Origin: Polynucleobacter sp. Adler-ghost
Lineage (GTDB): Bacteria; Pseudomonadota; Gammaproteobacteria; Burkholderiales; Burkholderiaceae
DNA: 64,000 nt
Assembly (NCBI RefSeq): GCF_018688495.1
Contig: NZ_CP061320.1
Coordinates: 1,646,586-1,710,585 of the forward strand
Direction of reading: 5' to 3'
Below are positions 41,634 through 59,001 of the stretch, in pieces. Every line of letters starts with the position of its first letter. Within the stretch, counting starts at the first letter, position 1. A model generated the notes under the pieces. That model was not told the origin of the DNA. It did not search any database and saw nothing but the letters and a program-made list of their open reading frames with translations. The position numbers and the translations under genes were made by a program.

Positions 41634-41643
41634 AATTACCCCG

Positions 41644-42627: not shown

Positions 42628-42701
42628 GAGTAATCCTATTGAATATCGGTGAGAAGATAAAAATCAGGAAAAAATATTAGTCATAAAACTTACATCGATC
42701 A

Positions 42702-43382: not shown

Positions 43383-43403
43383 TAATCTTCCTTTATTTTA
43401 TTT

Positions 43404-44225: not shown

Positions 44226-44348
44226 AGGTACTCTCTGATTTAGTTTTTATATTTGAATTAGGATACCTAATAATTAAAAAAAAATATAGTGAAATGGCTA
44301 TCTACAAAAAACAAAACCCCCACCATTTCTGATGAGGGTTTGCTTTTC

Positions 44349-44393
44349 TGGTGGGCCCACCAGAACTTGAACCTGGGACCAAAGGATTATGAG
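44349..44393 (-). pseudogene. tRNA-Ile(CAU) 3' exon fragment fused to a foreign end
   Basis: On the minus strand this carries the anticodon loop CTCATAA, the 3' anticodon stem, T-arm and acceptor 3' strand with CCA, equal to the 3' exon at 58330-58369 except one T-arm change. There is no intron sequence. The upstream side is GGGCTTCTGCT instead of the tRNA 5' half. This is the arrangement expected of an attachment site whose crossover lies in the anticodon loop. Confidence 0.85.
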
Positions 44394-44567
44394 AGCAGAA
44401 GCCCATGATAGATCCATATAAACAGGGGGGTCTGCGGGTGGTCTGTGTCGGTGTGTAAGTAAATGTGTAAGCAAATTCACGCATTTACTAGAAGAGCTAG
44501 ATCGCTCTTTGGTTTTCAAAACCACAGGAATTTTGGAGCAACCATCTAGCACATCGTTGCTCCAAAG
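44387..44567. repeat. 180-bp island-end repeat, copy 1
   Basis: A direct imperfect repeat of 58822-59001. Shared parts include TTATGAGAGCAGA at the left edge, ATATAAACAGGGGG, TCTGCGGGTGGTC, two GTGTAAG direct repeats, and a hairpin TTTGGAGCAAC...GTTGCTCCAAA at the right. The left edge is fused to the tRNA 3' exon. The GTGTAAG repeats look like integrase arm-type sites. Confidence 0.8.
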
Positions 44568-44592
44568 GACTTTTTTTAAATAAAGATTTTTA

Positions 44593-45369
44593 TTATCTAT
44601 TCAAAAAATTTTCAACCGATGTTCGATGCTCTACAGAACTAAAACACATTCCTAGAGCCATATTACTTTGAGAAAAAATATCCTCAAGCGAAGACTCTAT
44701 ACTTTTATTAATAATACGTTTACTCAGCATGAAGGCAGGCTTGGCTGTGTCTTTAAATGTATTAGCCCATTGTTTAGCATTCTCGAGTAAGCCCCCTGGA
44801 TCTGAGTAGCGATCTACGATGCCGATTGTCATTGCCTCTTCAAATTTGACCCTTCTTCCTGAGAAGATTAAATCTTTAGCCAAGCTCATTCCAACTCGTC
44901 GAGGTAAAAAATACATCCCACCTCCATCTGGAATCACCGCTCTGTCAATGTATGACCAGCAAAACAACGCATTTTCACTGGCAATAATGAAATCACATGC
45001 TAGCGCTAAATCAGCACCCAATCCAAAAGCTGAGCCATTTACAGCAGCAATAATGGGTTTTGGCATATTGTGAATCAGCGTAATCATTCGCTGAATTTCT
45101 TGATGTCTCTTCCATCCCTTGATAGCTATTTCGCCAGCTGGAATCTCAAGCCTTTTAGCCATCGCCTCAATATCACCGCCCGCACAAAAACTAGCACCAT
45201 TTCCACTTAAAATAACAGCGTATATGCTCTCATCATTTGATACCGACTCAAGAGCATTGAGAAGCTCATGTCTTATCTGATCGTTCAAGGCGTTGTGCTT
45301 ACTTGGTCTATTAAGAAAAAGAAATGCCACGCCATCATCAACTCTTAAATCAATACATTCATAATTCAT
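44593..45369 (-). CDS. Enoyl-CoA hydratase/isomerase family protein
   Basis: A 258-residue crotonase-fold protein that hydrates or isomerises enoyl-CoA. The oxyanion-hole motifs are SGNGASFCAGGDIEAM near residue 59 and NGSAFGLGADLALACDF near residue 109. At the second catalytic position the residues are IPDGGGMYFLP (Asp-Gly-Gly), so one of the usual hydratase Glu pair may be replaced, which is closer to isomerases or decarboxylases. It is read opposite to the CaiB gene set, beside the IclR gene, and likely belongs to the same pathway. Confidence 0.9.
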   Translation of the reverse strand: MNYECIDLRVDDGVAFLFLNRPSKHNALNDQIRHELLNALESVSNDESIYAVILSGNGASFCAGGDIEAMAKRLEIPAGEIAIKGWKRHQEIQRMITLIHNMPKPIIAAVNGSAFGLGADLALACDFIIASENALFCWSYIDRAVIPDGGGMYFLPRRVGMSLAKDLIFSGRRVKFEEAMTIGIVDRYSDPGGLLENAKQWANTFKDTAKPAFMLSKRIINKSIESSLEDIFSQSNMALGMCFSSVEHRTSVENFLNR

Positions 45370-45408
45370 TGAAAGACCCCTTTAAGGATTATTGTTTTTA
45401 TAAAGTGC

Positions 45409-46194
45409 TTAAGATTTTCTGCTGATAAAAATTCTTCCACTATCCTTTTCAATATTATGTTTTGCTTCAAGTAAATGCGGAATAATAAATTGATGAATCT
45501 CTTGCTGCGAAAGCTTTGAACCACTGAGAGTGCAATTTAGCGCAATAGTTGGATCATCACTACTTCCAACCCTAAGCGGGACTGATACAGCGCATACATT
45601 TGGCTCCCAGTCACCAAGACTCAGGCAGTATGAATTTTTTTCAAAAAAAACTTTATCTCGATTAAAGTGATGTAGGTCCCTACGATACTGGGTCGGATAA
45701 GTAATCTTTATTCTATTTAAAATAGCGTTCTGATCTTTTTCCGAGGAGGCGAGTAAAAGAGCACGCCCTATCGAAGTAGTTAAAAGTGGCCTACTACTTC
45801 CAATATCTGGCTTTAAAAAATTCCGTCGATCAAGTCGCATTGCGTCTATATATACAACTTCAAGACGTCCAAGCATCCCTAAATTAACCGTCCATTTTGT
45901 TTTGGTAGCCAACTGCTCCATATGAGGGCGAGCTAAATGTCGAATTTCTAGGCCAGCCAACATGGGATAACCCAACATTAAAACTCCAGGTCCAAGGCGA
46001 TATTTTTGTAATCTATCCACCTTCAATAAGTAACCCAATTTTTCAAGTGTGTAAGTTAGACGCGAAACTGTTGCCTTAGGGAGCGAAGTTCTTTCACATA
46101 ACTCTTTGTTGCCCAATAATTGGTCAGCAGGATTAAACGCCCTCAGCACTTCTAGGCCCCTACTTAGATTTATTGCAAACTGACGATCGATCAT
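45409..46194 (-). CDS. IclR-family transcriptional regulator
   Basis: A 261-residue IclR-type regulator. The N-terminal winged helix (about residues 10-75) has LCERTSLPKATVSRLTYTLEKLGYL, and the C-terminal effector domain carries MRLDRRNFLKPDIGSSRPLLTTSIGRALL near residue 135. It is divergent from the CaiB gene, and a 9+3+9 palindrome lies in the intergenic region. It probably controls the CaiB-MaoC-ACAD-TctC-AcuI set in response to a pathway acid. Confidence 0.93.
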   Translation of the reverse strand: MIDRQFAINLSRGLEVLRAFNPADQLLGNKELCERTSLPKATVSRLTYTLEKLGYLLKVDRLQKYRLGPGVLMLGYPMLAGLEIRHLARPHMEQLATKTKWTVNLGMLGRLEVVYIDAMRLDRRNFLKPDIGSSRPLLTTSIGRALLLASSEKDQNAILNRIKITYPTQYRRDLHHFNRDKVFFEKNSYCLSLGDWEPNVCAVSVPLRVGSSDDPTIALNCTLSGSKLSQQEIHQFIIPHLLEAKHNIEKDSGRIFISRKS

Positions 46195-46264
46195 GCCTTT
46201 TAGCCCCTTTCAAGGTCTACACATCCTTATTCTTTTCCCGGTGGATAGCAATCTATTCTAACAA

Positions 46265-46285
46265 GTGTTTCGCTAGGCGAAACAC
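46265..46285. promoter_or_regulatory. Putative IclR operator palindrome
   Basis: GTGTTTCGC and GCGAAACAC form a perfect 9-bp inverted repeat around a 3-base centre. It lies between the divergent IclR gene (starts 46194) and the CaiB gene (start 46350). The GTTTCGC...GCGAAAC half-sites resemble known IclR-family operators. Confidence 0.75.
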
Positions 46286-46349
46286 ACTGATGGTCCTAAT
46301 TTTCTCTGATTCAATAGAAATTCCTACTAAAAATCGACCAAAAAAAAAT

Positions 46350-47570
46350 ATGAGCACAACTCAAACACCAAGCAGTAATAAAGGTCCTTTATCTGGTGTA
46401 CGTATCCTGGATATGGCCACTGTAATTGCTGGTCCATTTGCAGCGACGCTTTGCGCTGACTTAGGCGCTGAAGTCACCAAACTCGAACTACCTGCCAGCA
46501 ATGATCCTTTGAGAACTTTTGCTCCCATGAAGGATCATCATTCTTTATATTGGAAAGTTACCAATAGAGGCAAAAAAGGCATTACCTTAGATGTACGAAA
46601 GCCTGAGGGAAAAGAAATTTTTTTAAGAATGCTGCCCTCTTTTGATGTATTGGTGGAAAATTTTAGGACTGGCACCCTTGATCAATGGGGTCTTGATATC
46701 AAAACCTTGCATCAAGCTAATCCTCAGCTTATCGTTCTTCGTCTTACTGGGTTTGGTCAGACTGGCCCCTATGCCAGAAGGCCAGGCTTTGCTCGCATCT
46801 TTGAGGCAATGAGTGGCTTTACAAACTTAACGGGAATGGCTGATGGCCCCCCTCAGCATATGAATTACCCTTTAGGAGATGTAGTTTCCGGATTATTTGG
46901 CGCGTTCTCCATAGCAGCAGCTTTAGTTGAGAGATATCGATCAAAAGATATGTTCGGCAGGGAAATCGACCTATCCGCAACCGAGGCCATGATGCGTCTA
47001 CTTGATCCACTAGCAGTAGAGCTGGATCAATTAAATTACATTCGCGGGCGTGCCGGATCAAGGGCAACATATACAGCCCCTTCTAATATTTACAAAACAT
47101 CTGATGGGGTTTGGGTCAGCATAGTTGGCTCATCCGATCCAATATTTAAGCGGTTTTGTTCTGCAATGGGAATGGAAGAATTGGCAAGCAATCCTAAATT
47201 TTCTAACAATCAGTTGCGCCTAAAGAATTTAGATGAAATAGACCAAATTATCTCTAACTGGTGCTCTTCGCTAAATTTTGAAATGTTAGCAATAGTCCTT
47301 AACCAGCATGATGTTCCTTTTACCAAGGTTTATGACATTAATGATGTCTTGAATGATCCCCACTTTATAGAGCGCAATGCAATCATCAGGCTACCTGATG
47401 AAGATTTAGGCAGTATTCCGGCCCCTTGTATCGTTCCGCGTTTTTCTGGCATACCCGAATATATTCCCCATAGTGGATCGAAAACTGGTGCCCATAATAT
47501 TTCTTTTTATTCTGAACTTGGCTTGAGTGATGAAGAAATTTCCAAACTAAAAGCTAGCAACGTTATATAA
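46350..47570 (+). CDS. CaiB/BaiF-type CoA-transferase
   Basis: The protein from the ATG at 46350 has 406 residues and is a class III CoA-transferase. The N-terminus GVRILDMATVIAGPFAATLCADLGAEVTKLE is diagnostic, with VLVENFRTGTLDQWGLD near residue 98 and GFARIFEAMSGFTNLTG with the following GDVVSGLFGAFS region near residue 180. The frame runs upstream to 46173, but the extra part is unlike the family and crosses the operator. First gene of the plus-strand operon, followed by MaoC within about 12 bases. Confidence 0.93.
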   Translation: MSTTQTPSSNKGPLSGVRILDMATVIAGPFAATLCADLGAEVTKLELPASNDPLRTFAPMKDHHSLYWKVTNRGKKGITLDVRKPEGKEIFLRMLPSFDVLVENFRTGTLDQWGLDIKTLHQANPQLIVLRLTGFGQTGPYARRPGFARIFEAMSGFTNLTGMADGPPQHMNYPLGDVVSGLFGAFSIAAALVERYRSKDMFGREIDLSATEAMMRLLDPLAVELDQLNYIRGRAGSRATYTAPSNIYKTSDGVWVSIVGSSDPIFKRFCSAMGMEELASNPKFSNNQLRLKNLDEIDQIISNWCSSLNFEMLAIVLNQHDVPFTKVYDINDVLNDPHFIERNAIIRLPDEDLGSIPAPCIVPRFSGIPEYIPHSGSKTGAHNISFYSELGLSDEEISKLKASNVI

Positions 47571-47582
47571 AAGGAGTACTGC

Positions 47583-48068
47583 ATGCACAAAATTACACTT
47601 GGCTCTCTTAACGAACTAAAAAACTGGGTTGGCAAAGAGCTTCCCCCTTCCGATTGGCAGGAAATCACTCAACAGCGTATTGATTTATTTGCAGAGGCTG
47701 GTGGAGATAATCAGTGGATACACGTAGACCCAGTAAGAGCTGCTAAAGAATCCCCTTATGGCGTCACAATAGCTCATGGCTTTTTAATCCTCTCACTCTT
47801 AAGTAGATTTTTCACAGATACTGTTCACATTGATGGCGTTACATTGTCGATCAATTATGGAGCCAATAAAGTCAGATTTACTGATCCAGTTTTAGTAAAT
47901 TCTAGAGTGCGCGCTCATTTCACCTTAACCTCCCTTGAGGCATTTAAAGGCGGAGTACAAATTATTTGGAATGTATCTATAGAGCAAGAAGGTAAGGAGC
48001 GGCCTTGCATGATCGCAGAATGGATAAGCCGACGTTATGGGGCTTTTGATAGCGAAGCTTCGCAATGA
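47583..48068 (+). CDS. MaoC-family dehydratase
   Basis: A 161-residue hot-dog-fold hydratase. The catalytic Asp/His motif is FAEAGGDNQWIHVDPVRAAKESPYG near residue 36, followed by TIAHGFLILSLLSRFF. Members hydrate trans-enoyl-CoA or mesaconyl-CoA-type substrates. An AAAGGAG ribosome site precedes the ATG. It lies between the CaiB-type transferase and acyl-CoA dehydrogenase genes, consistent with a CoA-linked degradation pathway. Confidence 0.93.
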   Translation: MHKITLGSLNELKNWVGKELPPSDWQEITQQRIDLFAEAGGDNQWIHVDPVRAAKESPYGVTIAHGFLILSLLSRFFTDTVHIDGVTLSINYGANKVRFTDPVLVNSRVRAHFTLTSLEAFKGGVQIIWNVSIEQEGKERPCMIAEWISRRYGAFDSEASQ

Positions 48069-48096
48069 AATTTCATACTTTGATTAAAGGAGCTCT

Positions 48097-49257
48097 ATGA
48101 TTCGCAACCCAAACGAATTCTCTTCTTTTTTAGATTCACTAAAAAAGTATTGCCAGAATAAACTTATTCCTCGTGAAGCGGAAGTTGAATTACTAGATGA
48201 GGTACCCCCAGATTTAGTGACCGATATGGCTGGGTTCGGACTATTTGGATTCTCAATTCCAGAGACATATGGCGGTTTCGGCATGACGACTGAAGAACTG
48301 GTATTGGCCGCTATGGAAATATCGCAATGCTCCGTTGCCTTTCGTGCGCGAGTAGGAACCAACACTGGAATTGGGTCTGAGGCTTTGGTTGCCGATGGAT
48401 CAGAAGCACAAAAAGAAAAATATTTACCTAGACTAGCCAGCGGTGAAATTACTGGATGCTTTGCAATTACCGAGCCTGATGCAGGCTCTGACGCTGCCTC
48501 TTTAAAAACTTCGGCAAGAAAAGAGGGAAATGATTTCATTTTAAATGGCACCAAATGCTTTATTACCAATGCACCCATATCTGATCTATTTACCGTTATG
48601 GCAAGAACAGATCAGAGCAAGCCTAAGTCCGATGGTGTTTCCGCATTTTTAATAGAAAGAAATACGCCGGGACTCACTGTTGGTAGTCCATATAAAAAAA
48701 TGGGGCAAGCAGGATCCCCAGTTTCAGAAGTGCATTTCGAAAACTGCCGTATTCCTGCTAGCAATCTGATTGGGATAGAGGGTGCGGGCTTTAAAACTGC
48801 AATGAAAGTATTAAATAAGCAGCGCATACATTTAGCAGCACTTTGTATTGGTCCAGCCATTCGCATGTTAGATGAAATTGTGAATTACGCATCTGTCAGA
48901 GAGCAATTTGGCAAGCCTATTGGCACTTTTCAATTAGTGCAGGCGATGATTGCAGACTGTCAAACTGAAATTTACGCTGCTAAAGCACTTGTTTTGGAAA
49001 CTGCTCGAAAACGTGACTCTGGAGAAGATGTCAGCATGGAAGCTTCCATCTGCAAATATTTCTCCTCAGAAATGTGTGGAAGGGTTGCAGATCGTTGTGT
49101 ACAGATACTAGGTGGATATGGTTATATTTCCGATAACCCGATTGAGAGATTTTATCGAGATGTGCGTCTTTTCCGCCTCTATGAAGGAACGAGTCAAATT
49201 CATCAACTAAACATCGCTAGAAATACGTTCAAAAAAGCAGGACATACCTTTAACTAA
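48097..49257 (+). CDS. Acyl-CoA dehydrogenase
   Basis: A 386-residue FAD enzyme that oxidises acyl-CoA to enoyl-CoA. The flavin-binding signature is CFAITEPDAGSDAASLKTSA near residue 122, the electron-transfer region is FGKPIGTFQLVQ, and QILGGYGYISDNPIERFYRD near residue 335 precedes the catalytic Glu in LYEGTSQIHQLNIAR. An AAAGGAG ribosome site is present. The substrate is presumably the acid activated by the CaiB-type enzyme; the chain length cannot be seen. Confidence 0.95.
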   Translation: MIRNPNEFSSFLDSLKKYCQNKLIPREAEVELLDEVPPDLVTDMAGFGLFGFSIPETYGGFGMTTEELVLAAMEISQCSVAFRARVGTNTGIGSEALVADGSEAQKEKYLPRLASGEITGCFAITEPDAGSDAASLKTSARKEGNDFILNGTKCFITNAPISDLFTVMARTDQSKPKSDGVSAFLIERNTPGLTVGSPYKKMGQAGSPVSEVHFENCRIPASNLIGIEGAGFKTAMKVLNKQRIHLAALCIGPAIRMLDEIVNYASVREQFGKPIGTFQLVQAMIADCQTEIYAAKALVLETARKRDSGEDVSMEASICKYFSSEMCGRVADRCVQILGGYGYISDNPIERFYRDVRLFRLYEGTSQIHQLNIARNTFKKAGHTFN

Positions 49258-49280
49258 CAATTTAATTTTTTGGAGAAATA

Positions 49281-50252
49281 ATGAAAAATAAACTTCATAT
49301 AACGATTTTTTCTTTGCTCTGCGTAACATCTGCTTTTAACGCTTTTGGGCAGGATGCAAGCTATCCTAATCGCCCCATCAAAATTATTGTCCCTTACGCC
49401 GCAGGTGGTGGTGCGGATAATGTTGCGAGAACGATTGGTCAGAAATTAGGGCCAATACTTGGCCAAACAATAATTGTTGAAAATAAACCAGGTGCCTCAA
49501 CACAAACAGGAACACTCGCAGTTGCAAAAGCCCCTGCCGATGGCTATACCTTGTTAATGGGTACGGCAAACCTTGCAACAAATCCCGCATTATTTGAGAA
49601 ATTGCCTTATGATACTCAAAAGGATTTAGCTCCGATAACGCTTATTACCAAAGTTCCCGTTTATATTTTTGTTACAAATAATTCAAATATTAAAAGTGTT
49701 ACTGAGTTACTTGCTAAAGCAAAATCAACACCCGACGGCCTATCTTATTCAACACCGGGAAATGGCAGCATTGGACATTTGGCTGGAGAGCTATTTAAAA
49801 GTGACTCCAAAAGCAATCTACATCACATCCCTTACAAGGGAAGCTCAGAAGCAACAACCGCCCTTATTGGCGGACAGGTTCAGTTAAGTTTTGATAATTA
49901 TGGTCCAGTAATGGCGCAAGTTAACGCGGGCAATGCAGTCCCATTAGCAATTGCCATGCCGAGTAGGGCAAGCATTACGCCTAATGTTCCAACATTAAAA
50001 GAGCTAGGATACCCAATGGAAGCATATTCCTGGTGGGGAATTTTGGCGCCAGCAGGCACACCAACTCCTATTATCAATCGCCTAAATAGCGCCATTCAGA
50101 CAGTCATAAAGATGCCTGATGTTCGCGAGGGCATGCAAAAACAAGGGGTGGAATTTGTTGGAAGTACTCCTACCGAGTTTGCTGAACATATCAGACTTGA
50201 AACAATCAAGTGGTCACAAGTTACCAAACAAGCCAACATCAAAGCCCAATAA
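49281..50252 (+). CDS. Bug/TctC-family tripartite tricarboxylate receptor
   Basis: A 323-residue periplasmic receptor with a signal peptide ending near FNAFGQ. Family motifs are IVPYAAGGGADNVARTIG, VENKPGASTQTGTLAVAKA and HHIPYKGSSEATTALIGG. It starts after a GGAGAAATA ribosome region, 23 bases behind the acyl-CoA dehydrogenase gene, so it is in the same operon and is likely the receptor for this pathway's acid. Confidence 0.93.
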   Translation: MKNKLHITIFSLLCVTSAFNAFGQDASYPNRPIKIIVPYAAGGGADNVARTIGQKLGPILGQTIIVENKPGASTQTGTLAVAKAPADGYTLLMGTANLATNPALFEKLPYDTQKDLAPITLITKVPVYIFVTNNSNIKSVTELLAKAKSTPDGLSYSTPGNGSIGHLAGELFKSDSKSNLHHIPYKGSSEATTALIGGQVQLSFDNYGPVMAQVNAGNAVPLAIAMPSRASITPNVPTLKELGYPMEAYSWWGILAPAGTPTPIINRLNSAIQTVIKMPDVREGMQKQGVEFVGSTPTEFAEHIRLETIKWSQVTKQANIKAQ

Positions 50253-50253
50253 C

Positions 50254-51243
50254 ATGAATACACCTTTTAAAGCTTTTCGCCTTTACTCCTTAGATGGAGC
50301 AGTCACCAGAAAAATTGAATCCATTCAATTGGACTCTTTAAGCCCCGGCAATGTGATCATCAAGGTAGCATATTCTAGTATTAACTATAAGGATGCATTG
50401 GCTTCGAAAGGTCTTAATAATATAGTTCGTGAATGGCCAAGAATTAGCGGTATTGATTTGACTGGCATAGTGGTTGAATCGCTTGATTCACGCTTTAGCC
50501 CAGGTGATGAGGTATTAGTAAATGGTTGCGGGCTGGGAGTAGATCATGATGGTGGGCATGCCCAATATGCACGCGTGAATGCAGATTGGGTAATGAAAAT
50601 ACCTCAAGGCATTACGCTTCTTGATGCCGCTACTATCGGTGTAGCAGGTTATACGGCAGGACTATCTCTTGACTTAATGGAGCTAAACGGCCTCAATCCA
50701 CTAAGCGGTCCAATCCTAGTAACCGGAGCAACTGGCGGTGTAGCCACTATTGCAATTGATATGTTATCGAAAAGAGGTTATCAAGTTACCGCTATGAGTG
50801 GCAAACCAAATGAGGCGGAATATCTTAAAAACCTCGGTGCCACTGAAGTCATTACACGAATTTCATCAGAGAGTAAATTTAAGCCACTTGAAAAAGCGCA
50901 ATGGGCAGGAGCAATTGACTCAGTTGGCGGCTCTACTTTATCTTGGATCACTCGCGTGATGCAACCAGGCGGAGTAATTGCGGCCTTTGGAAATGCTGGT
51001 GGAGCAGAACTTGAGACTACTGTAATTCCATTTATTCTCAGAGGAATCCGTTTGATTGGTATCAATGCAAATTCACCTATGAATATAAGAGAAAAAGTTT
51101 GGAAAAAGATTGCGAATGAATATCACCCAACTCATCTAAAAGAAATCGCCAGTATCATAAGTATTGAGGAATTAGCACATCATCTAGATCTCACGCTAGC
51201 AGGAAAATCGAAGGGCAGAATTGTGATTGACATGAATCAATAA
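50254..51243 (+). CDS. acuI: Acryloyl-CoA reductase-like oxidoreductase (AcuI/YhdH family)
   Basis: The protein from the ATG at 50254 has 329 residues and is a zinc-free MDR-family reductase resembling AcuI/YhdH, which reduces acryloyl-CoA to propionyl-CoA with NADPH. Typical segments are YSSINYKDALASKGL near residue 45, GVDHDGGHAQYARVNADW near residue 93, the Rossmann VTGATGGVATIAIDML, and TAMSGKPNEAEYLKNLGA near residue 180. Its ATG directly follows the TctC stop. A longer frame from 50119 overlaps the TctC gene and is unlikely. Confidence 0.88.
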   Translation: MNTPFKAFRLYSLDGAVTRKIESIQLDSLSPGNVIIKVAYSSINYKDALASKGLNNIVREWPRISGIDLTGIVVESLDSRFSPGDEVLVNGCGLGVDHDGGHAQYARVNADWVMKIPQGITLLDAATIGVAGYTAGLSLDLMELNGLNPLSGPILVTGATGGVATIAIDMLSKRGYQVTAMSGKPNEAEYLKNLGATEVITRISSESKFKPLEKAQWAGAIDSVGGSTLSWITRVMQPGGVIAAFGNAGGAELETTVIPFILRGIRLIGINANSPMNIREKVWKKIANEYHPTHLKEIASIISIEELAHHLDLTLAGKSKGRIVIDMNQ

Positions 51244-51272
51244 GATCTGAAATAAGAAAATAAGGAGATAAT

Positions 51273-52247
51273 ATGAAGCGCCGAGAGTTTCTCATTACCA
51301 TTCCCAGTATTGGCCTATATCCGTTTGTGTCATACAGTCAGACAGGATTTCCGAGCAACTCAATTAAGATAGTTTGCCCCTACGCGGCTGGGGGTGGCCC
51401 AGATATACAGCTAAGACAAGCGGCTCCTTTTCTGGGCGAAACATTTAAGCAATCCGTGATTATTGAAAATAAAGTCGGTGCCGGCGGTGTACTAGCGACT
51501 CAATTTACTGCTCAGTCAGCCCCTGATGGCTACACCCTTATGCTCGGATCAAACATACAATTAATTCAAAAAATTATTAAGCCAGAAATTTCAATTAGCC
51601 CCTTAACGGATTTTGCGCCCATCAGCAATATGTACTCCTTCCCAACCGTGATGATGGTTTCAGCAGACTCTCCATATAAAAGAGTTGAAGATGTTATTGC
51701 TGCTGCCAAAGCCAGTCCTGGATCTATGAATTATGGATCTGGCGGGATTGGCACTTCAGCACATATTGCCGGGGCAACATTTGTAACATTGAACAATTTA
51801 AAGGTAATTCATATCCCGTTAAAAGGATCGGTGGAAATTGCTACGTCTTTAATCCGAGGCGATACACAATTTGCCTTTCCAATAGCAGGTACAGCCGTAC
51901 CATTGATCAAAGGAGGAAAAGTACGTGCACTTGCCGTAACAAGTAAAAATCGTTTAACACAATTACCAGATGTGCCAACACTAAATGAAATAATGAAAAA
52001 TGAGTTAACAATTCAGGAATCATGGTTTGGCATGTGGGCTCCGATCAAAACACCTCGAGATAAGATTGATGCTCTTTTTCAAGGTATTACTAGCGCCTTG
52101 AATAACAAAGCTCTGAAGACAACTTTTGAGGAGGCGGGCAATATGGTTACGCCCAGTCAGAGCCCTCAAAACTTTGGAATATATATGGCGAGTGAAAATA
52201 AAAAATGGGCTGAGATTATCCGCCTTACAGGCATAACTGCTGAATAA
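51273..52247 (+). CDS. Bug/TctC-family tripartite tricarboxylate receptor, Tat-like signal
   Basis: A 324-residue receptor of the Bug family, the second in this operon. The signal is short and begins MKRREFLITIPS, a twin-arginine-like start, unlike the Sec signals of the other four copies. Motifs are IVCPYAAGGGPDIQLRQA, IENKVGAGGVLATQF and IHIPLKGSVEIATSLIRG. An AAGGAG ribosome site lies before the ATG. Last gene of the operon, ending before a strong hairpin and a tRNA fragment. Confidence 0.9.
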   Translation: MKRREFLITIPSIGLYPFVSYSQTGFPSNSIKIVCPYAAGGGPDIQLRQAAPFLGETFKQSVIIENKVGAGGVLATQFTAQSAPDGYTLMLGSNIQLIQKIIKPEISISPLTDFAPISNMYSFPTVMMVSADSPYKRVEDVIAAAKASPGSMNYGSGGIGTSAHIAGATFVTLNNLKVIHIPLKGSVEIATSLIRGDTQFAFPIAGTAVPLIKGGKVRALAVTSKNRLTQLPDVPTLNEIMKNELTIQESWFGMWAPIKTPRDKIDALFQGITSALNNKALKTTFEEAGNMVTPSQSPQNFGIYMASENKKWAEIIRLTGITAE

Positions 52248-52315: not shown

Positions 52316-52340
52316 AAATACCAACCCGAAGGTTGGTATT
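52316..52340. terminator. Strong bidirectional hairpin terminator
   Basis: AATACCAACC and GGTTGGTATT form a 10-bp stem around CGAA, with A-rich and T-rich flanks. It can end the TctC transcript from the left and the tRNA fragment side from the right. Confidence 0.85.
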
Positions 52341-52348
52341 TTCATTTC

Positions 52349-52469
52349 TGGTGGGCCCACCAGGACTTGAACCTGTAATAAAGGAGTCCAGTTTGCGTAG
52401 CTTTCACAACTCCCTAGACTATGAATTCGTCATCTCCATTACTTGACCTGAATGGGTGCCGTCCAGTCT
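52349..52469 (-). pseudogene. Decayed tRNA-Ile(CAU) 3' exon with about 80 nt of the group I intron
   Basis: On the minus strand the acceptor and T-arm (GGTTCAAGTCCTGGTGGGCC) are intact. The variable loop and anticodon stem are damaged, and the intron end is altered but recognisable (TAGTCTAGGGAGTTGTG, GACTGGACGGCACCC, the P7 strands). It extends further into the intron than the copy at 54.92 kb. The stop of the HATPase/STAS gene lies exactly at its edge. Confidence 0.85.
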
Positions 52470-53510
52470 TTACCCACAATTACTTTGAGCAGCCTTAATC
52501 ATTTTTTTAACCTCTAGGCTCTCATTTATAGAGTGAATTGTAATTTGTGGATTTTGTTTAACAAAAACACGAAATACTTCATCTGCAAATGCCTGACCAA
52601 TTGACTCAACACCCTTAAAGTCTAGTAGCACTGTCTTAAAACGATCAACGCGATTTAAAATACGCTTCGCCTGTGAACGCGAAATAAGCTGGCCACCTTC
52701 GTATAGAGCTAGCTTAACGGGCACAACAGTTTTATTAAACGCGTAATCTTCGTCTTCCGTGCCGCTAAAACTATCAAATACTGTACGCAATATTCTTTCT
52801 GAATTAAGCGCTATCTTCATGACAACCCTAGTTCCTTGATGACTTTTTTCGTTATGAAGTAAAAAGTCTATTCCCGAGTCGTCCGCATGCGTAAAGACTA
52901 AATCACCAGAGAAAATAAAAAATTCATCAAAAGCACGTGATGAGAAAAAGATTCCTTGCCCAGTATGATTACTTGGATCTGTAGTGAGCTTTCCTTTGCT
53001 CAACTCCAAAATAGACTCACGTGGATCATGCAGCTTTAATAATCTAGCGATATGGTTAAAAATTCCCTCGCCATTATCAATAATTGATATTGAAATAAGA
53101 TCGGGCGTTCTTTCTACATGAATATAGACCTCTGTGCCTTCCGAATGATCAATGGCGTTATTTAGCATTTCAGTAAAACCGTAATGACAAATATTGGCAA
53201 TTTCTTTAGGCAAGCCATTAAATATTTCACCAAAATCACGCGAATAGACTTCAGACTCCTCTAGCCCCTTTAATTTAAATAGACCATCATGAAATCGCTT
53301 TACACCTAACTGATATACCCGCGCCTTTGTACTGCCGCTGGAAGCTAAAAATCCATCCTTAACTAAGGCTGCAAAATGAGCATGGATAGCCTGCCTAGTA
53401 AGGCCAAACCTTTCCATTGCGGCATGAGCTAAATCGAGTTGATTAGCTTTAACGCCATCCACTAAGAACTGACGTACTTCTTGGGAGCGCTTTGTATTGG
53501 CAAATTTCAT
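52470..53510 (-). CDS. HATPase and STAS-like (DUF4325) regulatory protein with N-terminal winged helix
   Basis: A 346-residue cytoplasmic protein with three parts. A winged helix-turn-helix (about residues 8-65) contains LTRQAIHAHFAALVKDGFL. A GHKL ATPase domain (about 105-225) has the N box FTEMLNNAIDHS, the D box IDNGEGIF, and the G2 box GQGIFFSS. The C-terminal STAS-like DUF4325 domain (about 255-340) has VLLDFKGVESIGQAFADEVF. The design resembles anti-sigma kinase/antagonist pairs fused to DNA binding. It is preceded by three 20-bp direct repeats and its stop lies on the tRNA/intron fragment. Target unknown. Confidence 0.85.
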   Translation of the reverse strand: MKFANTKRSQEVRQFLVDGVKANQLDLAHAAMERFGLTRQAIHAHFAALVKDGFLASSGSTKARVYQLGVKRFHDGLFKLKGLEESEVYSRDFGEIFNGLPKEIANICHYGFTEMLNNAIDHSEGTEVYIHVERTPDLISISIIDNGEGIFNHIARLLKLHDPRESILELSKGKLTTDPSNHTGQGIFFSSRAFDEFFIFSGDLVFTHADDSGIDFLLHNEKSHQGTRVVMKIALNSERILRTVFDSFSGTEDEDYAFNKTVVPVKLALYEGGQLISRSQAKRILNRVDRFKTVLLDFKGVESIGQAFADEVFRVFVKQNPQITIHSINESLEVKKMIKAAQSNCG

Positions 53511-53517
53511 GTCTATT

Positions 53518-53575
53518 TTTGTAAAGTTTTATGAAATTATTGTAAAGTTTTATGAAATTATTGTAAAGTTTTTGA
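53518..53575. repeat. Three direct repeats upstream of the HATPase/STAS gene
   Basis: AACTTTACAATAATTTCATA occurs twice in full and a third time in part (minus strand), directly before the start at 53510. Exact spacing of two DNA turns makes them candidate operators for the winged-helix domain of the adjoining protein. Confidence 0.75.
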
Positions 53576-53610
53576 TCAAGGATTGACAAGAAACCCTGAA
53601 TAAATAGTAC

Positions 53611-53796
53611 TTATATGCGCTCTGAGGCCCTTTTAACCCTATTCACCGCTAAATCAAGTTGAGTCTCTTTAGTAGTTGCTCGTATCCACTTGTTATCCAC
53701 CTTATAGCGACATTGCCACACGGCACTATGCTCGCGTTGATAGAGGGTTAGGTTACGGTGTATGAGTTGATGTGTACTTTCTTTTTTAGTTGCCAT
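53611..53796 (-). pseudogene. Possible N-terminal fragment of a tyrosine integrase
   Basis: A 61-codon frame whose translation (NLTLYQREHSAVWQCRYKV, then DNKWIRATTKE and LAVNRVKRASERI) looks like the N-terminal arm and SAM-like start of a phage-type integrase. It stops after the first segment and no catalytic domain follows. I treat it as a truncated remnant, though it could be an unrelated small protein. If correct, it is the only trace of a recombinase in the 39-59 kb zone. Confidence 0.5.
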
Positions 53797-53917
53797 ACAT
53801 ATACTTTAGCTTCAGAGCCTAAGCTAGAGCAACCAAGTTGGCTGAATTATCAGGGTCAATTTAGCCAAAAGAAAGTGTGGCTAGTTGTGGCAGTTAATGG
53901 AGGTTTTTTGGAAGTCT

Positions 53918-53940
53918 AAGCGTTACTTTAAGTAACGCTT
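53918..53940. terminator. Perfect hairpin AAGCGTTACTT/AAGTAACGCTT
   Basis: An 11-bp inverted repeat with a one-base centre immediately beyond the TIR-like gene stop (53943). It likely ends that transcript and is one of four copies of this palindrome in the accretion zone. Confidence 0.65.
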
Positions 53941-53942
53941 GA

Positions 53943-54386
53943 TTAATATCCAGCCTTTCTAGCAGCCTTTTCAATCCATGAACCCATATTTTCATATCCA
54001 TCATCCTTATTCCAGTAATAAAGTGGATATTCATTCGAAACCATTCGTCCGCAACGATCTGTAGTCTGCCCTTGTAAATCTTTTATTTTACTTACATCAA
54101 TTGCTAGTAATCCATTGCCTATAGCTATGCTCTTTTGAATCTCATATTTCACCCAACGGCTGTTGCAAGTTTTATCGCCAATCAATACAACTGTTACTGA
54201 AGTGCCCCTTAATTGGTTATCAATCCAATTTTTAATGGAGGTATCGCCTTGTCTTTTAATTTTTTCGAAATCTGCTGCATCAATAAACCCAGCCGCATCC
54301 CTACCCTGAGTAACCCAACTATTTCTGACGATCATAGCTCTAGAAACATCTTTATATTTGAAGCTAAAAAATACTCTTCTGGCCAT
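53943..54386 (-). CDS. TIR-like (DUF1863/ThsB-type) protein
   Basis: A 147-residue protein of the TIR-like family PF08937, which includes ThsB of the Thoeris phage-defence system. Features are the opening strand RRVFFSFKYKD (residues 2-12), the middle IKNWIDNQLRGTSVTVVLIG near residue 50, and NSRWVKYEIQKSIAIGNGLLAIDV near residue 78, where the Glu of KYEI sits at the position of the TIR catalytic Glu. An AGGAG ribosome site is present. It starts 16 bases behind a small membrane protein gene, so the two are one operon. A defence role is inference. Confidence 0.8.
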   Translation of the reverse strand: MARRVFFSFKYKDVSRAMIVRNSWVTQGRDAAGFIDAADFEKIKRQGDTSIKNWIDNQLRGTSVTVVLIGDKTCNSRWVKYEIQKSIAIGNGLLAIDVSKIKDLQGQTTDRCGRMVSNEYPLYYWNKDDGYENMGSWIEKAARKAGY

Positions 54387-54402
54387 AAAGACTCTCCTAT
54401 TG

Positions 54403-54816
54403 TTAGCTACGTACTAGATATAAGTACACAGCAACACTAACCAACAATACAATACACCCGTGAAAAATAAGCAATGTTCTTGAGTACAGGGCTGCCAGTA
54501 ATGAAGGTGTCTGATTGACTACACCACCAGTACTCATGACAAATAAAGAGCTAGGAATTTCACCGCTAGCTACCCCTTCATATAATTTTCTATACAGCCT
54601 TTCTTGATATAAAAAATATCCATCTAAAACCCAAAACATAAACACTGGAAAATAAGCAAGTAATAGAAATTTCTTTTCTGCATCTTTAGTGGCTAAAGCA
54701 AAGCATGCAGCAACTAAAGTTATGCTCCACCCTTTTAGCAAGAATGAATTTGATCCCAATCGATTAATAACACCCTGAATAAAACCTAGATGAGCAATCT
54801 GTTTACTTGAATCCAT
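54403..54816 (-). CDS. Small three-helix membrane protein paired with the TIR-like gene
   Basis: A 137-residue protein with three predicted membrane helices: about residues 28-44 (LKGWSITLVAACFAL), 50-71 (FLLLAYFPVFMFWVLDGYFLY) and 113-135. Between them is a hydrophilic loop starting QERLYRKLYEGVASGE. The layout resembles SLATT-type and other small membrane effectors of defence systems, but I cannot assign a family. It is upstream of, and 16 bases from, the TIR-like gene, so it may be the membrane partner of that protein. Confidence 0.7.
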   Translation of the reverse strand: MDSSKQIAHLGFIQGVINRLGSNSFLLKGWSITLVAACFALATKDAEKKFLLLAYFPVFMFWVLDGYFLYQERLYRKLYEGVASGEIPSSLFVMSTGGVVNQTPSLLAALYSRTLLIFHGCIVLLVSVAVYLYLVRS

Positions 54817-54874
54817 AAAGTAGCCTTTAATGACTTTTGCAATTTTTTAATGGAAACTCTATCATCTTGACTTA

Positions 54875-55000
54875 CAAAAGACAAAACCCCAGCTATCTCT
54901 AACTGGGGTTTGCTTTTCTGGTGGGCCCACCAGGACTTGAACCTGGGACCAAAGGATTCCGGTTTGTGTAGCTTTCACTACTCCCTGGACTATGCCTTCA
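54875..55000 (-). repeat. 126-bp exact direct repeat, copy 1 (terminator, tRNA 3' exon, intron end)
   Basis: Identical to 58286-58411, 3411 bp away, in the same orientation. It comprises a terminator hairpin (CCCCAG stem), the complete tRNA-Ile 3' exon with CCA (54919-54958) and the last 42 nt of the group I intron including the 3' P7 strand. Outside these limits the sequences diverge at once. The GntR gene stop lies 3 bases from its edge. Confidence 0.92.
54919..54958 (-). pseudogene. Exact copy of the tRNA-Ile(CAU) 3' exon
   Basis: Forty bases from A37 through CCA, identical to the intact gene, preceded by the last 42 nt of the intron and without a 5' exon. It cannot make a tRNA by itself. 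Confidence 0.92.
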
Positions 55001-55002
55001 AA

Positions 55003-55704
55003 CTATCTTTTTAGTGTTTGATGGACAAACTTTTCCAGACTCTCAAATAACTCATCCGAAGCCCTTTCAGCGGCTTTAGAGTCGCCATTAGAGATTGCCA
55101 AAGCGAGGTTTGCGTGCAGTTTTCCAGATTCCGCATCATCCTGGCTTTGATGATAAACAAACCAAAATCTCCGCGATAAAGAATCTAAAGAATCTAATGC
55201 CCTAGATGCAAATTCATTTCTCACGCAAGTGGAAAAATGATCATGAAAGGCTTTATCAGCCTGCAAAAGTGCATGACCGTCTCTTGTTTTGACTGCACCC
55301 AAAAGCTGATCAGCAATTGCTTGCATTTGCTTACGCTCTTCATCACCTGAACGTCTTGCAGCAGATCCGGCAGCAAATCGAGATACTACACACCTAAATT
55401 CCAAAAGCTTTAACTGATCAGCAATATTGATTTCGGTGACAACAATTCCCCGACGCGGAAGGATGTTAACTAATCCCTCCCTAGCTAATCGTTGGAGAGC
55501 CTCTCCAATCGGCGTTCTGCTGACTTGAAGCATCTCGCCCAACTCTGACTCAGAAAGCATCTGTCCCGGCTTAAATTGAAGAGTGACGATCATTTCCTCA
55601 AGCTCAGCGTACACCTTATCAGCCAAGCTGATGATGTCAGTCTTTTGCAAGACTAGTCGCTTCTTTTTTCCGGTATTTTTTAATTCAGTATTTTTTAATT
55701 TCAC
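55003..55704 (-). CDS. GntR-family (FadR subfamily) transcriptional regulator
   Basis: A 233-residue regulator. The N-terminal winged helix (about residues 24-90) shows YAELEEMIVTLQFKPGQMLSESELGEMLQVSRTPIGEAL in overlapping segments. The C-terminal FadR-type all-helical effector domain includes RRSGDEERKQMQ and the likely metal His in FHDHFS. It precedes the MHS permease and haloacid dehalogenase in a three-gene unit and probably controls them in response to a small acid. A low-complexity start (KLKNTELKNTGKKKR) is unusual. Confidence 0.92.
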   Translation of the reverse strand: MKLKNTELKNTGKKKRLVLQKTDIISLADKVYAELEEMIVTLQFKPGQMLSESELGEMLQVSRTPIGEALQRLAREGLVNILPRRGIVVTEINIADQLKLLEFRCVVSRFAAGSAARRSGDEERKQMQAIADQLLGAVKTRDGHALLQADKAFHDHFSTCVRNEFASRALDSLDSLSRRFWFVYHQSQDDAESGKLHANLALAISNGDSKAAERASDELFESLEKFVHQTLKR

Positions 55705-55771
55705 AGCAGGATTTAGGTATTGAAAATAGTGAGGATATTAAACCCCACCATTTTCGCCTGAAACTAGGTTT

Positions 55772-57442
55772 TTATAATTTTATATCCACATTTTTAGTTT
55801 CCGGTAAAAATATCAAGCCAAAAATTACAGTCACTGCCGCAATAATTACCGGGTACCAGAGTCCATAGTAAATATCGCCCTCTAAGGCCACTAGAGCAAA
55901 GGCTGTTGTAGGCATTAGGCCCCCAAACCAACCAGTGCCAATATGATAGGGCAGCGAGAGGGAAGAATAGCGAATTTTGGTTGGAAAGAGCTCAACCAAG
56001 GCTGCCGCTGTTGGTCCATAAGCCATCGTTACATAGATTACAAGCAAAAATACCAGCAAGAAAACCATTGGTTTATTGATCTCATCTACATTTGCTTTTT
56101 GAGGATAACCAGCCTCTGAAATGGTAGCGCTCAGCTCTTTTGCAAAATTATTCATTTTTAGTGCAGCCTCTTCTTTTGAGAGTCCCACTGAGTCAAATGA
56201 ATTAACAATCTTATCGCCAACTTTAACGCTCGCAATTGTTCCGGGCACCGCATTCTCAACATGATAGTTAACTGATGCAGCTACTAACTTTGCCTTAGCA
56301 ATATCACAAGAAGAGGTAAATTTCTTAGTTCCAGTGGGGTTAAATTGAAATTGACAATCCCCAGGATCTGCTACCACAACTACAGGGGAATTTTTTAATG
56401 CCATCTCTAGAGCAGGATTCGCATAATGTGTCAGACCTTTAAATATTGGGAAATAGGTCAGCACAGCCAATGCCATTCCAGTCAGAATAATTTTTTTTCT
56501 TCCAATACGATCTGATAGCGTGCCAAATATCAAAAAGAATGGGGTGGCGAGTAAAAGCGCCCCAGCCACAATTAAATTCGCAGTAACGCTATCAACCTTA
56601 AGTGTTTGCGTCAAGAAAAGTAGTACATAAAATTGACCCGTATACCAAACACACCCTAATCCGGCGGTGATACCAAACAATGCTATCAATACAATTTTCA
56701 AATTTTTCCAACGCAGGAATGACTCTGTTAATGGGGCTTTTGACTCAGCCCCCTCCTCTTTCATTTTGGCAAACACAGGCGACTCGCTCATAGACATGCG
56801 AATCCATACAGAGATTCCTAGCAAAATGATGGATACCAAGAACGGGATGCGCCAACCCCAATCTCCAAAGGCCGCCTCACCCAAGAATAGTCTCGTTGAT
56901 AGGATTACTAACAGTGATAGAAATAGCCCCAAGGTTGCGGTAGTCTGTATCCAAGCAGTAAATTGCCCCCGTTGATTATTCGGCGCATGCTCCGCTACAT
57001 AAACTACAGCACCGCCATACTCTCCGCCAAGCGCAAGACCTTGCAACAACCTAAGCGAAATCAGAATAATCGGCGCTGCAATACCTATACTTTCATATGC
57101 AGGCAGCAAACCAACACCAAAGGTCGATAAGCCCATAATGAGGATGGTCATTAAAAAGGTATATTTGCGACCGATCATGTCCCCAAGTCGACCAAATACG
57201 AGGGCGCCAAATGGGCGAACGATAAAGCCTGCCGCAAAGGCTAATAAAGCAAAAATAAGTCCCGTTGTTGGATCGGCCTTGGCAAAAAATTGCTTCGCTA
57301 TTACAGCTGCCAAAGATCCATATAAAAAGAAGTCATACCATTCAAATACAGTACCTAAAGATGAAGCAATGAGTATTTTTCGCTCCGCCTCAGTAATGAC
57401 CCTTTTGCTGTTTACAGAATTATTTGTGCTTTGAGTTGACAT
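55772..57442 (-). CDS. MHS-family MFS permease with large periplasmic loop, haloacid-permease-like
   Basis: A 556-residue member of the metabolite:H+ symporter branch of MFS. About 12 membrane helices and the MFS signature FGRLGDMIGRKYTF near residue 82 are visible. A long insert (about residues 340-455) with paired Cys residues (DPGDCQFQF, SSCDIAKAK) forms an extra-membrane domain. The length and insert match the haloacetate permeases Deh4p/Dehp2 of Burkholderia, which sit beside a dehalogenase, as here. Start at the ATG after AAAGGGGGC. The substrate is inferred. Confidence 0.88.
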   Translation of the reverse strand: MSTQSTNNSVNSKRVITEAERKILIASSLGTVFEWYDFFLYGSLAAVIAKQFFAKADPTTGLIFALLAFAAGFIVRPFGALVFGRLGDMIGRKYTFLMTILIMGLSTFGVGLLPAYESIGIAAPIILISLRLLQGLALGGEYGGAVVYVAEHAPNNQRGQFTAWIQTTATLGLFLSLLVILSTRLFLGEAAFGDWGWRIPFLVSIILLGISVWIRMSMSESPVFAKMKEEGAESKAPLTESFLRWKNLKIVLIALFGITAGLGCVWYTGQFYVLLFLTQTLKVDSVTANLIVAGALLLATPFFLIFGTLSDRIGRKKIILTGMALAVLTYFPIFKGLTHYANPALEMALKNSPVVVVADPGDCQFQFNPTGTKKFTSSCDIAKAKLVAASVNYHVENAVPGTIASVKVGDKIVNSFDSVGLSKEEAALKMNNFAKELSATISEAGYPQKANVDEINKPMVFLLVFLLVIYVTMAYGPTAAALVELFPTKIRYSSLSLPYHIGTGWFGGLMPTTAFALVALEGDIYYGLWYPVIIAAVTVIFGLIFLPETKNVDIKL

Positions 57443-57470
57443 TTACAGCCCCCTTTAAAAGTTTATTTGC

Positions 57471-58145
57471 TTAGCCAAGAAGATTTGGAATTTCGGCTAT
57501 CGAAGTTAATGCAACATCAGGAAGAAGGCCCACCTCGTCAGGGATTGCACCATTCCGATTAATCCAAATCACCTGAAACCCGAATGCTTTGGCACCAGCT
57601 ACATCAAAGTAATTTGATGTAACAAATCCAATTTCATGTCTTTGGAGATCGAACTTATCAGTTGCCAACTGATAAGTTCTTGGATGTGGCTTATAAACTT
57701 TGACCTCATCCACACTTAATAAGGCGTCAAATTGATCCGTAATTCCTGCGTTGCCAACTAAATTTGTTAGTAATGATGGGGTTCCAACAGATAGGATTGC
57801 CCTCTTAAGTCCACTCAATTTAGGAAGAGTCTGCCTAGCATCCTCAAAGGGAGATAACCTTTCGTAGGCATCCATTAAGGCACCTCTCTCACTTGTTCCT
57901 CCAGGAAGCCCTAAATATTTCAATGAATACTTAAGGCCTGCTTCTGTATTTTGGTTATGGGGTATATATCTACCCATAATGGTTCTCAAAAACATATATT
58001 CAATTTGCTTTGATCTCCAAAGTTGACTTAACTCCTTGCCTTTCCCTGGGTACATCTTTTCAGCCAAAGCAACAACTGAGTGAACATCAAACACCGTTCC
58101 ATAAGCGTCAAACGCAAGAGCTTTAATTCCGTGCAATTTTTTCAT
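57471..58145 (-). CDS. Type II haloacid dehalogenase (L-2-haloacid dehalogenase)
   Basis: The protein from the ATG at 58145 has 224 residues of the HAD superfamily. The nucleophile motif is LAFDAYGTVFDVHSV (Asp near residue 11). SQLWRSKQIEYMFLRTIMGRY near residue 43 is typical of type II haloacid dehalogenases, SVGTPSLL supplies motif II, and KVYKPHPRTYQLA motif III. FVTSNYFDVAGAKAFGF holds the conserved Ser/Asn-Tyr-Asp of this group. A ribosome site AAGGAA precedes the ATG, and a longer frame to 58214 is less likely. It forms a unit with the MHS permease and GntR genes. Confidence 0.92.
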   Translation of the reverse strand: MKKLHGIKALAFDAYGTVFDVHSVVALAEKMYPGKGKELSQLWRSKQIEYMFLRTIMGRYIPHNQNTEAGLKYSLKYLGLPGGTSERGALMDAYERLSPFEDARQTLPKLSGLKRAILSVGTPSLLTNLVGNAGITDQFDALLSVDEVKVYKPHPRTYQLATDKFDLQRHEIGFVTSNYFDVAGAKAFGFQVIWINRNGAIPDEVGLLPDVALTSIAEIPNLLG

Positions 58146-58264
58146 ACATTCCTTACTGAAGTTCAATTGGGATTTCAGTAGGATACTAGTAAAAAATGGG
58201 AAAAACATAGCCAATCAAGCTAGTGAAAACCCTTGTTTGCAAAAATTTTTACTTCGAATTGCTC

Positions 58265-58285
58265 AGCGTTACTCAAAGTAACGCT
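58265..58285. repeat. Perfect hairpin AGCGTTACT-CAA-AGTAACGCT
   Basis: A 9-bp inverted repeat with a three-base centre. It is one of four related palindromes in the zone and lies immediately beside the 126-bp repeat copy at 58286. Confidence 0.6.
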
Positions 58286-58411
58286 CAAAAGACAAAACCC
58301 CAGCTATCTCTAACTGGGGTTTGCTTTTCTGGTGGGCCCACCAGGACTTGAACCTGGGACCAAAGGATTCCGGTTTGTGTAGCTTTCACTACTCCCTGGA
58401 CTATGCCTTCA
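58286..58411 (-). repeat. 126-bp exact direct repeat, copy 2
   Basis: Identical to 54875-55000. It comprises the terminator hairpin after the tRNA (58291-58322), the 3' exon and the last part of the intron. This copy is inside the intact tRNA gene. The pair bounds a 3411-bp cassette with GntR, MHS permease and haloacid dehalogenase. Confidence 0.92.
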
Positions 58412-58628
58412 TCATATAAAGATTTACATCCTTACTTAGATGGGTGCCGTCTAGTCTCTACACCTTCAACAGCACTTTCATACTGAAGCTTGGCTCGGCG
58501 TTAGCTTGTGCAGCTTTTGGCTGCATTTAGCTTTCTCCGAATTTGACACCATCCCTTATGCAGTTTCCACGCATAAGGCACAACTTTCGCTATGAGTCCT
58601 CTGCTCTAACCAACTGAGCTATGGGCCC
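58330..58628 (-). tRNA. tRNA-Ile(CAU, lysidine type) interrupted by a group I intron
   Basis: The 5' exon (58592-58628) has acceptor GGGCCCA, D-arm GCTC...GAGC and anticodon stem GAGGA with loop CTCAT. The 3' exon (58330-58369) gives AA, stem TCCTT, variable loop, T-arm CCAGG/TTCAAGT/CCTGG, acceptor TGGGCCC and encoded CCA. Joined, they make a complete 77-nt cloverleaf. The anticodon CAU with these identity bases resembles tRNA-Ile2, in which C34 is changed to lysidine to read AUA, rather than elongator Met. The intron sits after U36. A terminator follows at 58291-58322. Confidence 0.9.
58370..58591 (-). ncRNA. Group I self-splicing intron in the anticodon loop of tRNA-Ile(CAU)
   Basis: A 222-nt intron without an open frame, similar in sequence and site to the Azoarcus tRNA-Ile intron. 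Its guide sequence GTG can pair with the CAT of the 5' exon. P2 is CCTTATGC/GCATAAGG with a GGAAAC-type loop. GGTGTCAAATTCGG leads into P3/P4. The two P7 strands are AGACTAGACGG (near 58450) and CATAGTCCAGGG (near 58400), the diagnostic group I pair. The intron ends in G before the 3' exon. It begins A rather than at the guide, leaving a short 10-nt leader. Confidence 0.9.
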
Positions 58629-58821
58629 TAAAACTTTCATTTACTACACACCTTACTGCTGGTGCTTACCACTTCAAAACCACACTAAAACCGCATTTAC
58701 TACACACCTCGGTTTTTGCTCCGGTGTGTAAGCGGTGTGTAAGCAATTTTGACTACCTAATTCACCACTAACCTCTTGAATCTATTGAGGTCTTTGTTAC
58801 AAGACCCCTTGGGCTTCTTTC
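58629..58821. other. Gene-free region upstream of tRNA-Ile with GTGTGTAAG-type repeats
   Basis: There is no open frame. The sequence holds several copies of GTGTGTAAG or its reverse complement (for example 58731-58744 and ACTACACACC at 58652 and 58710), and a hairpin GGTCTT...AAGACC near 58790-58806. The repeats resemble arm-type integrase sites and occur also in the 180-bp repeat. Confidence 0.6.
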
Positions 58822-59001
58822 TTATGAGAGCAGACACCCAAGGTAGACCCATATAAACAGGGGGTCTGCGGGTGGTCAGTGTCGATGTGTAAGCAAATGT
58901 GTAAGTAAATTCATGGATTTAAAGGAAGTACTAGTTCGTTCTTTGGTTTTTAAAACCAAAGGATTTTTAGAGCAACCATCTAACACTTCGTTGCTCCAAA
59001 G
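58822..59001. repeat. 180-bp island-end repeat, copy 2
   Basis: A direct imperfect repeat of 44387-44567. Its left edge TTATGAG is the reverse complement of the tRNA anticodon loop CTCATAA but is not followed by tRNA sequence here. It holds two GTGTAAG repeats (58889-58909) and the TTAGAGCAACC...GTTGCTCCAAAG hairpin. Confidence 0.8.

Follow-up and report, generated by a model that had tools for sequence, protein, structure and literature searches.

A recombinase-less gene cassette between intron-tailed tRNA(CAU) ends in a Polynucleobacter island array, and its probable transfer by homologous exchange

The 64,000-nt stretch of Polynucleobacter sp. Adler-ghost DNA analysed here (the window; contig NZ_CP061320.1, positions 1,646,586 to 1,710,585) contains a 3.4-kb gene cassette located between two direct repeats of 126 bp, which are 100% identical over 126 nt and spaced by 3411 nt. 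Read in the direction of the tRNA, each repeat starts with the 42 nt that close a group I intron, continues with the 40-nt 3' exon of a tRNA(CAU) gene and finishes with 44 nt that include a terminator-like hairpin; the sequence diverges abruptly at either end. The intron matches Rfam family RF00028 on the minus strand (58604-58377) with 57.4 bits, against a gathering score of 50. An initial annotation, made from the letters of this DNA, had described both the exact repeats reaching into a group I intron and this order of terminator, 3' exon and 42 intron nucleotides, and both descriptions hold. Between the repeats lie genes for a HAD-type hydrolase, a major facilitator superfamily (MFS) permease and a GntR/FCD regulator, all on the minus strand like the tRNA; the stop codon of the GntR gene is 2 nt away from the intron fragment of the distal repeat. 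The same annotation had taken this set of a GntR regulator, a permease and a gene that it labelled dehalogenase (here assigned to the HAD family, PF00702) to be non-autonomous, and a Pfam scan of the cassette proteins indeed finds no recombinase gene.

The proximal repeat is the end of a complete, intron-bearing tRNA(CAU) gene, and the distal repeat marks the cassette's right end as a fixed scar. In the unspliced window, ARAGORN detects no tRNA; after splicing in silico, it calls a 77-nt tRNA with the anticodon CAU. The program labels CAU tRNAs as Met, and we infer that this one is tRNA-Ile2(CAU). An intact, intronless tRNA(CAU) gene lies directly behind rpoD at contig positions 1714659-1714735, 9.4 kb to the right and beyond the window, so the intron-bearing gene is a second, island-borne copy. 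A search of the source genome with the 126-bp repeat gave seven matches, five beyond the two copies themselves; among them are three decayed tRNA 3' ends (window positions 39024, 44305 and 52339), the 3' exon of the rpoD-linked gene, and a match at 871 kb that covers query positions 6-37 only, that is, the terminator part.

To place the cassette in its setting, we compared 28 rpoD-linked arrays, namely those of the source genome and 27 relatives, fetched to 20-80 kb and picked by hand, not at random, from one-contig genomes after genome searches. The rpoD-linked tRNA gene is intact and intronless in 14 of the 28 arrays; in the other 14, it is split after GGACTCAT and followed by an attachment-site arm (P') and then by a complete tRNA gene. 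All 14 split 5' halves meet P' at CTCAT/AA (the slash marks the junction), and the P' arm, about 160-220 nt long, contains TTACACACC / GGTGTGTAGTAA-like repeats. Each of the 21 P' sites of the arrays is followed by a complete tRNA, which bears the intron at 19 of them, the exceptions being G073 and G138. The opposite arm (P), characterized by CTTACACA repeats, ends in CTCAT/A at 31 of 36 P junctions, where its neighbour is the tRNA 3' half AATCC (16), the P' of another element or a second P'-like type (14), or decayed or other sequence (6). Such junctions are the mark of integration at CTCATAA, a core located within the tRNA anticodon loop. A tRNA gene and, in the same orientation, a displaced tRNA fragment are present at the two unit ends, one short core is common to the left and right attachment sites (attL and attR), variable modules lie between repeated tRNA ends beside the tRNA gene, and the split tRNA is not rebuilt, a complete tRNA of the same anticodon being carried instead. 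The second P'-like type, CTCAT/AACC[AT]GAG, follows the P arm at 8 of the 36 junctions (G010, G012, G031, G077, G079, G082 and G138 arrays).

The enzyme belonging to these islands is a tyrosine integrase of ~450 aa, present in full length (at least 66% identity) in 8 of the 28 arrays, 1-7 kb behind the replacement tRNA in seven and 25 kb behind it in G145. Its Pfam matches are weak (0.025 and 0.043); PF00589 alone misses it, and it was found by comparing open reading frames across arrays. Among the best 120 of 2415 homologs listed, members are named integrase at source, some with PF00589, and across seven aligned copies the columns TGAR, LRH and HY, which we take to be the catalytic motifs of a tyrosine integrase, are invariant. 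The integrase recurs with 93-97% identity in six named Polynucleobacter loci (L142-L146, L150), and a piece at 97% in a metagenome-assembled genome labelled Legionellaceae (L148) is perhaps a binning error.

In the window, the two cores listed in Table 1 define an integrase unit of ~14.4 kb, and the 3.4-kb cassette is nested at its tRNA end. The exact 12-mer CTGCTCTCATAA has two copies in the window and a third place with one mismatch, for which 0.47 are expected by chance at one mismatch. The integrase of this unit survives as a 55-codon remnant only, and none of the nine PF00589 matches in the source genome falls inside the array. When both repeat ends were inspected for core and arm sites, the distal repeat had no P arm, no P' arm and no CTCATAA; the 126-bp repeats are not att sites of the island integrase.

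The cassette has nonetheless travelled. Across 186 Polynucleobacter genomes, with few candidates scored per genome (two for the cassette search), the complete cassette is found in at least four: the source genome (G000), G076, G185 and G145. Compared with G000, it shows 2 differences in 3285 positions in G076, 5 in 3270 plus 15 gap columns in G185, and 391 in 3277 plus 8 gap columns in G145. The identity of rpoD to G000 is 88.6% in G076 (1249 bp) and 80.3% in G185 (2542 bp). A near-identical cassette in strains with a diverged rpoD means that the block moved recently between species as a unit, in keeping with the recent arrival that the initial annotation had suggested, next to ongoing exchange, from the exact repeats. 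On either side of the cassette, the near-identity breaks off within the 3' portion of the tRNA. A contrast is provided by an element common to G010 (34526-42423) and G082 (18527-26424), with 14 differences in 7898 bp, which ends at the core: the shared sequence runs from TCTGCTCTCATAA at the left end as far as CTCATAA at the right end. Within the same arrays, ends made by the integrase are distinguishable from ends made by homology.

After a single crossover at a 7-bp core, one flank would consist of element sequence and the opposite flank of host sequence. We followed four markers in the cassette flanks: intron-tail base 4 (A/T), tail base 34 (A/G), exon base 13 (C/T) and the terminator stem. 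Tail base 34 is G in both flanks of G076 and A in both flanks of G000 and G185. Exon base 13 is T in both G185 flanks and C in four other G185 copies compared, a fifth having escaped the match; three more G185 copies are 100% identical to the query exon. The terminator stem is the same in both G000 flanks and differs from the cassette-side stem of G076 and G185. At tail base 4, the G185 flanks differ, with T in the proximal and A in the distal one. Both flanks of each strain (G000, G076, G185) agree where the strains differ, and the cassette between them is the same. All three strains are explained by a pair of homologous exchanges at a single resident tRNA end, or by one such exchange together with conversion. 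Because distal base 34 differs between strains, the exchanged tract starts to its left, at tail bases 1-33 and hence within the intron, in at least one strain. In G185, the tract starts between tail base 4 and exon base 13 and has its other end somewhere past exon base 13; in G000, that end lies past the terminator stem. Partial intron match starts in the BLAST tables were excluded as breakpoints because a variable loop trims them.

We favour, with moderate confidence, the homologous exchange of a non-autonomous module within a tRNA-dependent island array. The repeats are tRNA(CAU) gene ends that belong to a long array of accreted mobile islands next to rpoD. According to this model, autonomous islands encode a tyrosine integrase that acts on CTCATAA of the anticodon loop; they split the resident tRNA and supply a complete replacement tRNA that usually carries the group I intron. 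The 3.4-kb cassette is a non-autonomous module behind such a replacement tRNA, with the scar and the tRNA end offering ~80-130 bp of homology; through these, it would pass to other species by homologous recombination onto a resident tRNA end, leaving one stretch of recipient sequence on both sides. The scar itself may be what a deletion left of an attachment junction formed on an intron-bearing tRNA. Junctions of P arm, intron and 3' exon exist in L156, G087 and G076; if one of them lost its arm and the bulk of its intron, a scar of this kind would result. The junction of GntR stop and intron tail is fixed in four genomes (G000, G076, G185, G145), and that of a DUF4325 gene and intron is present in five arrays. 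The exchange was probably of RecA type, as opposed to the work of some other recombinase.

The strongest competitor, which we regard as unlikely, holds that the cassette arrived by integrase-type or other insertion and that gene conversion between the 126-bp copies then made the flanks alike. It predicts the same flank variants, and direct repeats 3.4 kb apart can convert; however, conversion would be needed in three strains within the time represented by 2-5 differences per 3.3 kb, no core or arm is found at the distal end, and the G185 flanks are still unlike at the first marker. Markedly less probable is a site-specific insertion with a recombinase crossover inside the repeat, in the intron tail or the exon. 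The exact repeat, the compact cassette and a right end fixed in four genomes would all fit such an event, but flank variants common within each of the three strains mean that no single point separates element from host sequence, the known island core lies elsewhere, and the cassette is without a recombinase. The distal repeat, devoid of arms and core, and the common flank variants together rule out a site-specific crossover in the intron as the best reading. Of the crossover in the intron proposed by the initial annotation, a tract end in the intron tail of at least one strain therefore survives, whereas the site-specific insertion is not supported, the core lying in the anticodon loop. An assembly artefact or collapsed repeat is hardly credible: long exact repeats can mislead assemblies, but the cassette with both ends is also assembled in G076 and G185, each a one-contig genome.

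Several points weigh against homologous exchange as we propose it. There is one informative marker per strain, and G at tail base 34 also occurs in one of two other G076 copies compared, so that it is strain-associated and not private. The boundary in the intron rests mainly on this one-base difference among G076, G000 and G185, and the same flank pattern would be expected had the repeats undergone conversion once the cassette was in place. Comparing strains with and without the cassette had been suggested as a way to define the crossover base; the flank markers did place bounds on the tract, but the empty G000 site was not found among the 186 genomes, where a search with the G000 distal flank listed matches beyond the exon and terminator in G000 only.

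Table 1. Cassette, repeats and integrase-defined unit, in window coordinates
Feature	Position	Strand	Remarks
Island integrase remnant	53632..53796	-	first 55 codons, 94.5% identity
Core CTCATAA, other unit end: P arm joined to tRNA 3' half (44388-44349)	44387..44393	-	
Second scar	52339-52473	-	intron 3' fragment and decayed 3' exon behind DUF4325 gene
Distal 126-bp repeat	54875..55000	-	intron tail 55000-54959, 3' exon 54958-54919, terminator part 54918-54875
GntR/FCD regulator	55003..55704	-	PF00392, PF07729
MFS permease	55772..57442	-	PF00083 5.1e-36, PF07690 1.3e-23
HAD-type hydrolase	57471..58145	-	PF00702 5.4e-17
Proximal 126-bp repeat	58286..58411	-	end of complete intron-bearing tRNA and terminator
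Complete island-borne tRNA(CAU)	58330..58628	-	5' exon 58628-58592, intron 58591-58370 (222 nt), 3' exon 58369-58330
P' arm with TTACACACC / GGTGTGTAGTAA repeats	58629..58823	-	matches P' in other arrays at 97% where compared
Core CTCATAA, P meets P' (attP-like junction)	58822..58828	-	exact 12-mer CTGCTCTCATAA at 58822-58833
P arm with CTTACACA repeats	58824..58953	-	outer limit approximate

Neighbouring parts of the array carry other modules. A possible defence module at window positions 52339-54874 surrounds the integrase remnant with a ThsB-like TIR gene (PF08937), a DUF4325/HATPase gene and a small open reading frame that matches no Pfam family. Three genes of the tripartite tricarboxylate receptor type, judged by a look at their sequences, lie at 41644-52247 (41644, 49281 and 51273); the one at 51273, the only one scanned, matches PF03401. 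A conserved module with a 195-aa tyrosine recombinase (PF00589) occurs in 6 of the 28 arrays, for example in L053. In P. sinensis MWH-HuW1 (L150:901-1653), the order is split tRNA, P', second split tRNA, P', intron-bearing tRNA; one P' there leads into a further split copy and not into a complete tRNA, and it seems that an element inserted into the replacement tRNA that a different one had brought. In G185 (contig 1, 1598694-1828457), the intron-bearing tRNAs at 1.60-1.68 Mb are plus-strand and those at 1.78-1.83 Mb minus-strand, a pattern suggestive of an inversion inside the array. Finally, a metagenome-assembled genome labelled Bordetella parapertussis (L153:5474-5933) carries part of an integrase (50%) next to a split tRNA plus a complete copy without an intron; this repeats the island layout except for the intron.

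The intron is widespread in the genus. An exact-pattern scan of the 186 genomes found the intronless gene in 93, the intron-bearing 5' junction in 56, both in 7, and neither in 44, exact patterns being prone to miss variants. No intronless copy was seen by pattern in 49 of the 56 genomes with the intron-bearing gene, and the source genome is among the seven with both. Among 299 sampled genomes of the family, eight of other genera matched, in the 5' exon only. An alignment of 31 distinct intron sequences has 1588 of 1602 cells canonical and two-sided changes in 16 of 52 predicted pairs, counted on the alignment from which the structure was predicted; the group I intron, above its gathering score, is structurally conserved according to this model. 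In G106 and G023, the intron sits in the rpoD-linked tRNA itself, without P', and so it is not only island-borne. A small group I intron also occupies the anticodon loop of Azoarcus tRNA-Ile(CAU), the same tRNA and position; the one described here is mostly on islands and repeated in arrays. The CAU-reading tRNA-Ile is essential elsewhere, and if it is essential here too, cells with only the intron-bearing gene would rely on spliced, mostly island-borne tRNA.

The position of the intron, inside the integrase core, raises the tentative and somewhat doubtful possibility that it partly shields the replacement tRNA by making it a poor bacterial attachment site (attB), while predicted splicing would still yield the tRNA. 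Under such shielding, it is conceivable, on equally slender grounds, that later elements would insert at leftover P' ends, that the array would grow and that the host would come to depend on a mobile ribozyme. The 36 P-arm junctions of the 28 arrays comprise 16 on an intronless exon, 14 at P' ends and none on an intron. An absolute shield is ruled out by junctions of P arm and intron in L156, G087 and G076; these three came from outside the 28 arrays, two of the three loci having been fetched for intron matches, as were most of the 16 further sequences in the integrase and junction comparison.

Related systems are known, and the comparisons that follow apply to the portions of the cited papers that were covered. 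The closest principle is the tRNA-dependent lysogeny of actinobacteriophages (PMC10865867), which include the tRNA-Ile2-CAT Gordonia phages OneUp and Mollymur, and the closest layout is that of the tRNA-Lys additive islands of Methylopumilus (PMC10872708). Like the islands described here, the phages use a tyrosine integrase and a short core within a tRNA gene left unrestored at attL, and they carry a complete tRNA of the same isotype; in contrast, we find bacterial islands in stacked arrays, whose replacement tRNA usually has a group I intron at the core position. The covered text of PMC10865867 does not describe an intron in the carried tRNA, the word intron appearing once, in a reference. 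The additive flexible genomic islands of Ca. Methylopumilus likewise have varied modules between direct repeats of a tRNA end, but these are 20-nt exon repeats (PMC10872708), whereas the repeats here enter the intron and arms, core and integrase are seen. The Islander tRNA/tmRNA islands (PMC4383910) share a tRNA gene and a displaced fragment in one orientation, tandems are known among them, and an anticodon-centred crossover is one of their known subsites; the difference is that an Islander island restores the split gene, while the P'-type elements bring a whole second gene. In what was covered of PMC10865867 and PMC10872708, we find neither a replacement tRNA with an intron at the core position nor module exchange via intron-plus-exon homology. 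None of the titles returned by a literature search concerned integrative elements whose replacement tRNA bears an intron; the Polynucleobacter island papers of Hoetzinger et al. were not covered by it, and parts of the array may already be in print.

Taken together, the locus shows how a gene module without a recombinase can cross species by using repeated tRNA ends as homology, and it exposes a genus-wide island system that often replaces a tRNA gene by an island-supplied, intron-bearing copy. Two questions thereby become testable: can an intron protect an integration site, and do free-living bacteria rely on a mobile ribozyme?

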